11,314 bases of DNA from Pseudomonadota bacterium. Its GTDB lineage: Bacteria > Bdellovibrionota > Oligoflexia > Oligoflexales > Oligoflexaceae. A model generated the notes under the pieces. The model was not told the origin of the DNA and ran no database searches. It was given only the letters and a program-made list of their open reading frames with translations. Positions 2 to 11,258 of this stretch are shown here, piece by piece. The translations under genes were made by a program, and so were the position numbers. The stretch lies in assembly GCA_029556045.1 (NCBI GenBank), contig JAKQGS010000436.1, positions 1 to 11,314 of the forward strand, read 5' to 3'. Each line of letters begins with the position of its first letter. Positions within the stretch are counted from its first letter, which is position 1.

Positions 2-811
2 GTCGCCGTCATCCTGGCGGTGATCCTTGGTTTGGTGATGTGGCAGTTTAAGCAGAACTTGACCCGCGATAGGCTTTTTCTGGAAGGCCGTCGGGATGAG
101 GCATTAAAGGCCGGTGAAGAGTCCCGCTTTAAGCTGCGGTATTGGAGCGCCCCGATTCTGTTGATTTACGGGATTGCTTTTACCTTTCTGGGTTTCGATC
201 TGATCATGTCGTTGTCCCCTCTGTGGTTCTCAACGTTGTTTGGTGGTTGGTTGTTTGCAATTATGATGCAGACACTGATGGCTCTGTTGCTGATCATCAT
301 GTTCTCCCTCAAAGATTCGGAAATTGGTGGCCTGATCCAGCGCCAGCAGTTCCATGACGTGGGTAAGTTGATGCACGGTTTCTCCATCTTTTTTGCCTAT
401 CTGACCTACGCCCATATCTTGACCTTTTGGTTTGGCAACATGCCGGAGGAGACCGAGTACCTCTTGCATCGGATGCATGCTCCCTGGATATATTTGGTGT
501 TTGGGATCCCTCTATTAGCGTTTGTTGTGCCTCTTTATGTCATGATCTTTAAGGCGGCAAAATGGACGCCTTCTGTCGCGGTTCCCATCGCCCTGTGCAT
601 CCTGGGATCCCAGTGGTTTACCTATATGCTGATCGTGATGCCAGACGTGGTGGATGGCAGCAAGATGGGGATGCCGCTGATCGAAATGGGATTGTTCTTT
701 GGCTTTCTGGGATTGTTTCTGGCCACCTATTTTTGGTTTGGGAAACGTTTCCCCATGGTGGGACTCGCAGATCCGATTCTGCCGGAAGCTCTTCAGGGAG
801 AGCACCACTAA
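2..811 (+). CDS. actF: Alternative complex III subunit ActF-like (NrfD-type quinol:cytochrome c oxidoreductase membrane subunit), 5' truncated by the window
   Basis: The reading frame is open to the first base, so only the C-terminal part (about 269 residues) is present; family members are roughly 400 aa. Alternative complex III oxidises membrane quinol and passes electrons to a cytochrome c-type acceptor or an oxidase, in place of the bc1 complex. Visible are a cluster of hydrophobic helices and recognisable ActF-style segments: MSLSPLWFSTLFG, the HDVGKLMHGF segment, the PEETEYLLHR loop, and a late VMPDVV loop. ActF and ActC are paralogous NrfD-like subunits; the MSLxPxWFST segment favours ActF. 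A terminator follows directly, so no further act or oxidase gene lies downstream on this strand. The identification is from remembered family sequence, not a search. Confidence 0.75.
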   Translation, partial: VAVILAVILGLVMWQFKQNLTRDRLFLEGRRDEALKAGEESRFKLRYWSAPILLIYGIAFTFLGFDLIMSLSPLWFSTLFGGWLFAIMMQTLMALLLIIMFSLKDSEIGGLIQRQQFHDVGKLMHGFSIFFAYLTYAHILTFWFGNMPEETEYLLHRMHAPWIYLVFGIPLLAFVVPLYVMIFKAAKWTPSVAVPIALCILGSQWFTYMLIVMPDVVDGSKMGMPLIEMGLFFGFLGLFLATYFWFGKRFPMVGLADPILPEALQGEHH

Positions 812-836
812 GGAGCCTTTGTATCAGTGGATATGC

Positions 837-872
837 AAAAGCCTGACGGTGCGAGCCGTCAGGCTTTTTTTT
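837..872. terminator. Strong intrinsic terminator, usable from both strands
   Basis: Perfect 9-bp stem GCCTGACGG (841-849) with CCGTCAGGC (856-864), loop 850-855, an A run before it (837-840) and eight T after it (865-872). On the plus strand it ends the actF-like operon. Read on the minus strand the same stem is followed by TTTT, so it can also end the convergent microprotein transcript. Confidence 0.9.
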
Positions 873-879
873 CGAAAAA

Positions 880-1005
880 GTTGGTCTTTAGCCTATGTAG
901 AGACCGTGCAGCCAAAAATAACAAGCCAGAGCGATGAACGTATTGGTTAGCCAACGAAAGAACGATGGGACCATGATGGTTTTCCTCCTACCCTCAAAGA
1001 CCAAC
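880..1005. repeat. 10-bp inverted repeat flanking the microprotein gene
   Basis: GTTGGTCTTT (880-889) and AAAGACCAAC (996-1005) are exact reverse complements. On the minus-strand transcript one arm lies at the predicted 5' end, just before the Shine-Dalgarno, and the other overlaps the stop codon, just before the terminator. The RNA could therefore close into a 5'-3' panhandle. The element is too short (126 bp) and lacks target-site duplication for an insertion sequence. Confidence 0.8.
888..974 (-). CDS. 28-aa single-pass membrane microprotein (unknown function)
   Basis: A 28-codon ORF beginning MVPSFFRWL and ending HGLYIG, stop TAA. A textbook Shine-Dalgarno AGGAGG lies at 984-989 with a 9-nt gap to the ATG, the best ribosome site in the window. 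The peptide is very hydrophobic and aromatic, with a short N-terminal part carrying one Arg and a helix (about residues 9-27) containing Cys, Tyr, Phe and Trp; it should sit in the inner membrane. A sigma28-like promoter lies upstream (1009-1035) and a terminator downstream (837-872), giving a stand-alone transcript of about 170 nt. It faces the actF-like gene, so an accessory role for a respiratory complex is possible but speculative. I do not recognise the family. An alternative is that the RNA is the functional product and the ORF is incidental, but the ribosome site argues against that. Confidence 0.6.
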   Translation of the reverse strand: MVPSFFRWLTNTFIALACYFWLHGLYIG

Positions 1006-1008
1006 CTC

Positions 1009-1035
1009 TTATCGCTTATTTTTATTCCAGCTTTA
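1009..1035 (-). promoter_or_regulatory. Candidate sigma28 (FliA-type) promoter for the microprotein gene
   Basis: Minus strand: TAAAGCTG (1035-1028), 11 nt, then AGCGATAA (1016-1009). The enterobacterial flagellar consensus is TAAAGTTT-N11-GCCGATAA; 12 of 16 positions match, with exact spacing and an intact CGATAA core. The predicted start of transcription (about 1003) falls on the 5' arm of the inverted repeat. Consensus in this organism may differ. Confidence 0.5.
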
Positions 1036-1178
1036 GGGAATTTTGGGTATTCACTCGATTAATCTTCCAACGTGTGGTCAATTTACCTAAATAATACAGT
1101 AATAACAGTGGTATGTGTGTCGCGGGTGTGAGAGGTGACGGCAGTGTTTCGGTGGGCAACATTGATCCATCTTGACTG

Positions 1179-1216: not shown

Positions 1217-1450
1217 ATGGGACATTTTGAAGAAGTTACGCGGGTAGCCATCAGTGAGATCCTGATGAGTTATATGCAGGAGACACGGTTTGGGTATGTG
1301 GTTTCCCCCGATGCCTTCGAGGAGCTGGCGGATGAGCTCAAGGGGTTTTTTATGACCAGTCGTAATCTGAAAAACGCGGGTGATCGCTTGCTGAGTCAAG
1401 GCCCGTCTGCCCTGCCGACTGTGCAAGCAGGTCGGCGTAAAAGCTACTGA
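1217..1450 (+). CDS. Small soluble protein of unknown function (77 aa)
   Basis: ATG preceded by AAGGGGAG (1202-1209) at good spacing. The protein is largely helical and acidic in its first two thirds (EEVTRVAISEILMSYMQ, then FEELADELKGFF), has no signal peptide, membrane helix or cysteine, and ends in a short basic tail (AGRRKSY). I do not recognise a family. The opposite-strand ORF over the same DNA (1022-1426) lacks comparable support. It converges on the HDOD gene with a 25-bp gap containing a T run (1457-1465) but no clear hairpin. GGAG of the ribosome site could pair weakly with CTCC just before the ATG. Confidence 0.6.
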   Translation: MGHFEEVTRVAISEILMSYMQETRFGYVVSPDAFEELADELKGFFMTSRNLKNAGDRLLSQGPSALPTVQAGRRKSY

Positions 1451-10529: not shown

Positions 10530-10556
10530 TTTACTTTGGCGACAAAAAGCCGATAA
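10530..10556 (+). promoter_or_regulatory. Candidate sigma28 (FliA-type) promoter for the last lipoprotein
   Basis: TTTACTTT (10530-10537, 5/8), 11 nt, GCCGATAA (10549-10556, 8/8). The perfect eight-base -10 at the exact canonical spacing makes this the most convincing promoter in the window. Predicted start is near 10562. The remainder of the 10453-10607 gap holds no gene. Confidence 0.6.
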
Positions 10557-10607: not shown

Positions 10608-11258
10608 ATGGTATTTGTGGAAAAATTGATTCGAATCGGGTGTGTCAGCCTGGTAACCGTTACCCTGATATCCTGTGGTCTTGATGAAGAAAAGAAGACC
10701 ATGACCCGAAAGTCCATCAGCGGATCGCAGCCAGCACCCGATGATATGGATAAGGGATCGTCAGCCGGTACGGAGGATGCGTCCGGAGAAGATCCCTCCC
10801 CGGAATCTTCGTCACAATTGCCTGATGATACAACAGACGAAACTCCAGCTTCCCAGATCCGTTCGTCGAAGGGCAGCGGTGGGGCCACAGGTTTGCAGGA
10901 GAATTCATTCACCTCAGACAATAACCTGACCAGCTCTTACAAAATCAATGCTCCTGCTGATGCCGGCAATGGCAAGGTCTATGGTCTTCATATTCACCTG
11001 CATGGCGACGGAGGCGGCGGCTATCGGGATTTTCCCAACCGTGAAACCCGGTTTGATTTGATAGGGGTGACCGTCAAAGCCCCGAACACCGGTCTGCAAT
11101 GGGGGCGTAGTCAAGGGGTGGCACACGGGCAGTTTCTCAATGATCTGATTCAGAATGAACTCGTCAAAAAATACGGGTCTTCCGCCAAATGTGTGGATAG
11201 CCAAGGGGCTATCGCGCGGTCGAACCGTTGGCTGACCGCGAGCACCGAGTCCGCTTGA
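10608..11258 (+). CDS. Lipoprotein with truncated alpha/beta-hydrolase (esterase/depolymerase-like) domain, 216 aa
   Basis: Lipobox LISC at 20-23 (C23 lipidated). An acidic Ser/Asp/Glu/Pro-rich linker (about 25-95) follows, then an esterase-like half domain: HIHLHGDGGGG (H132-G138, the oxyanion-hole region), LIGVTVKAP, LQWGRSQG and FLNDLIQNELVKKYG. In relatives I recall, this leads at once to a strand and the GxSxG nucleophile elbow. Here similarity stops at about residue 190 and a 26-residue tail (SSAKCVDSQGAIARSN...) ends at TGA, so no Ser nucleophile, Asp or His is present. It is probably an inactive truncated gene; a binding role is possible. ATG 10608 was preferred over GTG 10578 because it gives a proper signal peptide; GGGGGT lies upstream at long spacing. 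Confidence 0.7.
   Translation: MVFVEKLIRIGCVSLVTVTLISCGLDEEKKTMTRKSISGSQPAPDDMDKGSSAGTEDASGEDPSPESSSQLPDDTTDETPASQIRSSKGSGGATGLQENSFTSDNNLTSSYKINAPADAGNGKVYGLHIHLHGDGGGGYRDFPNRETRFDLIGVTVKAPNTGLQWGRSQGVAHGQFLNDLIQNELVKKYGSSAKCVDSQGAIARSNRWLTASTESA

Follow-up and report, generated by a model that had tools for sequence, protein, structure and literature searches.

A conserved gene family for a single-helix membrane microprotein, with a putative FliA-type promoter, in Oligoflexia

In a window of 11,314 nucleotides, by which we mean the whole stretch of Oligoflexaceae DNA that was analysed, the minus strand between positions 838 and 1035 carries a microgene of 28 codons that is almost certainly a genuine protein-coding gene, as judged from its conservation in relatives. 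Comparison of the sequences argues that the microgene is a membrane microprotein family under a FliA-type promoter and not a dual mRNA/small-RNA element. All of the elements named in an earlier sequence-only reading of this DNA, namely a sigma28-type promoter, an AGGAGG motif, the 28-codon ORF, a 10-nt complement and a hairpin, are indeed present on the minus strand at 838–1035. The features of the locus are as follows.

2..811 (+): convergent ActF-like gene (alternative complex III), 5' end beyond the window
838..867 (both strands): bidirectional terminator hairpin of 12 bp, common to the microgene and the convergent gene
880..889 (−): 3' arm of the 10-nt self-complement, sequence AAAGACCAAC, overlapping the stop codon
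888..974 (−): microprotein ORF, ATG at 974 and TAA at 888, 28 codons plus stop, product MVPSFFRWLTNTFIALACYFWLHGLYIG with a single hydrophobic segment
984..989 (−): AGGAGG ribosome-binding site, read from the sequence, 9 bases 5' of the ATG
996..1005 (−): 5' arm of the 10-nt self-complement, sequence GTTGGTCTTT
1009..1035 (−): sigma28 (FliA)-type promoter, −35 TAAAGCTG at 1035–1028, 11-base spacer, −10 AGCGATAA at 1016–1009
1217..1450 (+): 77-aa orphan gene, divergent neighbour of the microgene

The gene at 2..811, which we take to be ActF of alternative complex III, had no match in a Pfam search, and the 77-aa gene had none in Pfam or NCBIfam. Searches of the window for known RNA families (at gathering score) and for tRNAs returned none, and a search for plasmid relatives found none. 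The strong terminator that had been ascribed to the microgene holds in part: the 12-bp hairpin is there, the minus strand has a T-run of only 4 T, and the long T-run lies on the plus strand. A simple terminator scan reported a plus-strand site only.

A search for the peptide in related genomes, as the sequence-only reading had proposed, finds the frame conserved, with a homologue in 30 of 58 genomes of the class (27 via profile and three via the conserved neighbour, the 77-aa gene). A search with the ActF-like protein led to 16 loci, titled Oligoflexales, Oligoflexus, Pseudobacteriovorax, Bdellovibrio or less closely, and at 12 of these a short ORF convergent to actF and with the same C-terminal end lies directly behind it (that of L008 being broken by an N run). 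Ten of the 12 homologues and the window ORF made up the 11 rows of a first profile, which located the peptide away from actF in all but one of the four genomes that were left (G004, E 7.6e-9; G009, E 3.9e-8; G014, E 1.6e-3), the exception being G013. Over the 58 class genomes this profile matched 33 at E≤0.1, many of them outside its own rows; genomes that were not in the build include G028 (1.0e-9), G038 (3.6e-7), G042 (3.5e-6), G030 (5.1e-6), G040 (2.6e-5), G039 (3.3e-5) and the lowest-ranked, G020 (0.026). A 25-row profile, whose E-values are partly built in because its rows include most of the newly found members, matches 30 class genomes at E≤0.05, of which we retained 26 at E≤4.1e-7 plus G008, a copy that is interrupted by an N run and was counted as a carrier. 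The three members located beside the 77-aa gene, where few local frames were searched, are those of G023 (E 8e-4, ending YLWIHSTWF), G025 (E 3.7e-4, ending FFYVHGPFIG) and G032 (E 6.3e-5, ending FLFVQSPFL, the least certain member); G023 with the 11-row profile (E 0.075) and G032 with the 25-row profile (E 0.040) had been weak matches, both divergent to the 77-aa gene. Among the six genomes inspected there, G013 and G022 have no member, and the contig of G029 stops about 120 bases past the 77-aa gene. The region beside actF in 13 profile-negative genomes yielded no copy, three of these regions being short (800, 250 and 250 bases). Weak matches in G017, G022, G035, G045 and G054 were discarded as chance, being partial and, where seen, carrying a C-terminal tail or stops; for G022 and G035 the score table was the sole basis.

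Built without the window, a profile scores the window ORF at E 2.1e-10 and no other frame of the window better than 0.25. A search of 287 relatives gave 26 matches at E≤0.001, every one of them within the same class genomes, and no homologue at this threshold outside the class.

The tests of promoter, RNA and hydropathy took in the window plus 24 carriers, 25 sequences in all. The other six carriers were omitted: G008 for its N run, G010 and G041 as near-copies, and G023, G025 and G032 because they were identified at a later stage. The 25 aligned members have 22–29 residues and a near-common end point (two are without the last G), with the C-terminal consensus YFWxHGPxIG-stop; one divergent member of the family has 34 residues. 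In the 23-residue core, H18 is the sole position above 90%. A single hydrophobic segment is found in all 25, the best 17-residue mean hydropathy being 1.29–2.50, and its orientation in the membrane is uncertain because only 11 members carry a net positive charge at the N-terminus. Searches of Pfam, NCBIfam and PDB gave no relative of the microprotein, a single NCBIfam match (E 0.097, from one of the 25 members) and PDB matches at E 1.7 or more being taken as chance. A literature search found no published description, and novelty is claimed with reference to that search and the family libraries only.

The substitutions are biased towards synonymous ones, as the sequence-only reading had anticipated for a coding frame. 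A first figure of 29 of 40 synonymous changes, obtained with the 27-carrier set, was biased because the pairs had been picked on peptide identity; the test was therefore redone with pairs taken from the ActF tree. Of the 53 codons with one change in eight such sister pairs, 37 changed synonymously, against 25% expected (p 1.5e-11), and the differences by codon position number 33, 15 and 66. The pair G010/G011 is identical and hence uninformative, and the pair G016/G042 has 4 synonymous vs. 5 non-synonymous changes. It is the relatives only that rule out chance for the ORF and the promoter. With frame, stop position, hydrophobic segment and promoter all conserved, the claim of a compact microprotein gene that had been missed by annotation is upheld.

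The promoter was compared with the E. coli sigma28 consensus, which we take to be TAAAGTTT-N11-GCCGATAA and which served as the yardstick for all matches counted of 16. The window promoter has 12 matches (p 0.025 within its 150-base region), and with three window sites of 12 or more found vs. 1.2 expected by chance, the site alone is weak evidence. Over the 25 members, the best 11-spaced match in the 150 bases 5' of the core sums to 290, against 228.5±3.9 in 100 rounds of dinucleotide shuffling (maximum 237); some of the members are close relatives and hence not independent. At a spacer of 11, 12 of the 25 reach 12 matches, compared with 0–3 at thirteen other spacers. Individually, 13 members are at p≤0.05 and 12 are above it (L017, L020, L021, L023, L031, L032, L033, L034, L039, L042, L044 and L047). 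Further, the motif TAAAGN14GCCGATA occurs 187 times in the 58 class genomes, vs. 30 times for the reversed control; in G028 the counts are 18 and 0. The matches take in the promoter of the microgene in both G028 and G012. FliA (TIGR02479) scores above its cut-off in 53 of the 58 class genomes, the window's own genome not being among them. We consider it very probable that the microgene is under FliA control.

The programme in question does not look simply flagellar, because the upstream regions of flagellin and MotB-type genes barely show the motif. For 30 flagellin upstreams, one per genome, the sum is 298 against 287.3±4.1, a slight excess (maximum of 60 shuffles, 296), and one of the 30 has 13 or more matches; the start of L067 appears wrongly chosen. 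The 28 MotB-type upstreams (30 genomes, two more being without a frame found) contain one site of 12 or more. Thus, little or no E. coli-like sigma28 promoter is seen at the flagellar genes of the clade that were covered (L050–L079 and L186–L215; flagellin and MotB-type), and the reading of the microgene as a simple flagellar gene is weakened. When 20 other sites were inspected (17 in G028 and three in G040), ten were found by eye to precede an ORF with a lipoprotein-like N-terminus; a scan of ten G028 products gave one response regulator, one LssY_C protein and one HAMP match below the curated cut-off. All eight flagellin-less genomes (G017, G018, G021, G024 and G033–G036) keep FliA above the family cut-off, as if its role there were non-flagellar. 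The regulon is probably not simply flagellar.

Two further sites were seen in passing. On the plus strand of the window, at 10530–10556, TTTACTTT-N11-GCCGATAA has 13 of 16 sigma28 matches and lies 51 bases 5' of a lipoprotein-like ORF at 10608; it is perhaps a second member of the same regulon. On the minus strand of L133 (G028:C60:11200-13300), a 42-aa ORF stands behind a sigma28-type site whose 26-mer is unchanged in G012, and this ORF is possibly another small gene of the regulon.

Among the class genomes, the microgene occurs in flagellated ones only. Flagellin is present in 50 of the 58 class genomes, including 30 of 30 carriers, and the microgene in none of the eight flagellin-less ones (Fisher p 0.0016 over the 58 genomes and 9e-6 over G001–G043, a section delimited by ActF similarity, both values being uncorrected for kinship). 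On the ActF tree, the seven flagellin-less genomes with ActF need four changes vs. carriers, at least two of which are forced by well-supported branches. Among flagellated genomes, no copy was found in G013, G022, G029, G031 and G037 or in any of the 15 genomes G044–G058. Such absences are soft because many of the genomes are MAGs, and they can be artefacts: no copy was found in G029, whose ActF is nearly identical to that of the carrier G030, because its contig stops next to the 77-aa gene, and the members of G023, G025 and G032 were missed at first. The 77-aa gene itself is found at E≤0.001 in 34 of the 58 class genomes, distributed as 29 of 30 carriers and five of 28 non-carriers (two of them weak), with none of the eight flagellin-less genomes having it. 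In 25 of the 30 carriers, the microgene lies next to it in divergent orientation, no more than about 750 bp away.

Considering the position of the microgene behind actF, the peptide might belong to the neighbouring alternative complex III/oxidase supercomplex, as a small subunit or a helix for assembly, switched on in the motile state and raising energy supply, a possibility that we regard as unlikely. Eighteen of the 30 carriers have the microgene convergent to actF and no more than 150 bp from it, in six more it lies on the same contig at 0.9–16 kb, and a one-helix precedent exists in ActG of the Rhodothermus marinus complex, as described in passages of PMC5928083. Against this stand the own promoter on the opposite strand and the distribution: ActF is matched in seven of the eight flagellin-less genomes, all of which are without the microgene, one carrier (G026) has no ActF match, and five have ActF on another contig. 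Nor is the microgene found everywhere ActF is (30 vs. 53 of 58 genomes), which would still be compatible with an accessory subunit. The position beside actF may be merely inherited, since synteny with the 77-aa gene is stronger. In G016 and G041–G043 the microgene adjoins actF with the 77-aa gene on another contig, and in eleven other carriers it lies by the 77-aa gene with no adjacent actF; because each adjacency occurs without the other, location proves neither neighbour to be a partner. At L028 and L184, a gene named by eye as acetate-kinase-like lies just downstream of the microgene on the same strand, before actF.

The sequence-only reading had also proposed that the 10-nt complement between the 5' end and the stop codon closes the RNA into a panhandle, making the locus a dual mRNA/small-RNA element. 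Since a sigma28 start usually lies six to seven bases past the −10 box, bases 1004–1005 of the 5' arm are probably untranscribed. In the window, the complement is an unusual one given the sequence (p 0.010; p 0.017 for the duplex), and the transcript including the terminator folds with z −3.87. This value is mostly due to the terminator hairpin, because the stretch from −40 before the start to +10 past the stop, which has both arms and is without the terminator, gives z −0.86 (mean of the members −0.24, with four of 25 below −1.65). The panhandle was not borne out in the relatives: in only two of 24, L038 and L044, does the longest complement exceed shuffles at p<0.05, the 8-mer of L038 lies outside the transcript because it overlaps the −10 box, and the duplex energy is significant in L044 alone. 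The arms diverge without compensating changes, an outcome that the sequence-only reading had itself named as refuting; it speaks against the panhandle and leaves the gene untouched. The leaders of the 25 members fold like shuffles (mean z 0.01), and the idea that a structured leader is conserved was rejected, two of 25 being below −1.65 (L033, z −5.71; L018, z −1.90); hairpins covering the Shine-Dalgarno region, seen by eye in a few relatives, are not general because the leaders fold no better than shuffles. FliA-type promoters do give short transcripts in Bdellovibrio and E. coli, according to parts of PMC3627812 and PMC10578931, and with the window complement and fold this is what speaks for a dual-function RNA; with the complement not kept in 24 relatives and the leaders unstructured, we consider such an element highly improbable. 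The panhandle appears to be a local feature of the window at most.

A hydrophobic peptide of this size with a single hydrophobic segment also resembles a type I toxin. This reading is improbable, given that each carrier genome has one match at E≤0.05, that synteny is stable, that the promoter is a dedicated sigma28-type one, and that polar residues are conserved and leader structure is not.

We return, then, to the membrane microprotein. In the mechanism that we propose, FliA or a FliA-like sigma factor would transcribe a short mRNA from the microgene's own sigma28-type promoter, ending at the terminator hairpin common to the convergent actF-like gene. The peptide, with its single hydrophobic segment, would insert in the inner membrane and may make helix-helix contact via a conserved polar residue (N/D/K) near its start and a nearly invariant His near its end. 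There it could join a membrane complex that is important while the FliA programme is on, with an accessory or regulatory role as a subunit; candidate partners are a complex of respiration, one related to motility or the surface, or another. To this accessory-helix mechanism we give an even chance of being right. The reading as a whole, a FliA-type-promoted single-helix microprotein with an accessory or regulatory role in an inner-membrane complex that is used during the motile phase, is likewise one that could go either way in our judgement. Distinctly doubtful is the narrower idea that a clade-specific, FliA-driven motile-phase microprotein tunes the adjacent respiratory complex III/oxidase, or another ion-motive complex, to the energy demand of swimming; if true, it would be a direct link at the peptide level between the motility programme and respiration. 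The findings offer a concrete example in which a membrane peptide is linked to a FliA-type programme, and they add a conserved gene family for about 22–29 residues without a Pfam or NCBIfam model, in a poorly studied class and with an identifiable candidate regulator. They also suggest that FliA may govern lifestyle more widely in Oligoflexia, which is what has been reported for Bdellovibrio.

Small single-helix membrane proteins of bacteria, such as CydX, have fewer than 50 residues and one hydrophobic helix, are easily overlooked and likely bind a larger membrane protein. The microprotein shares this size, the one hydrophobic helix, the escape from annotation and a likely action by binding a larger membrane protein; it differs in having no sequence relation to them in Pfam, NCBIfam or PDB, in its own sigma28-type promoter and in being confined to one class among the genomes searched. 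As described in parts of PMC5928083, ActG of the Rhodothermus marinus complex has one predicted helix, is missing from some act clusters and was judged non-essential for catalysis. One predicted helix and patchy occurrence are thus common to both, a likeness by description and not by sequence comparison, whereas ActG is encoded with the act genes where present. The sigma28-dependent sRNAs UhpU, MotR, FliX and FlgO of E. coli are, in the sections concerned of PMC10578931, short, UTR-derived, base-pairing transcripts; the microgene resembles them in its short putative sigma28 transcript and differs in that its conserved product is a peptide. In Bdellovibrio bacteriovorus, passages of PMC3627812 report the FliA motif TTAAG-N16-CCGATA in 92 of 140 attack-phase promoters and at three of eight listed short RNAs, and describe its targets as comprising flagellar genes and many that are non-flagellar, surface or unknown. 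As a coding gene in another class, the microgene differs from the regulon so described, and it agrees with it in a FliA-type motif on non-flagellar genes, half of the 20 targets here being lipoprotein-like.
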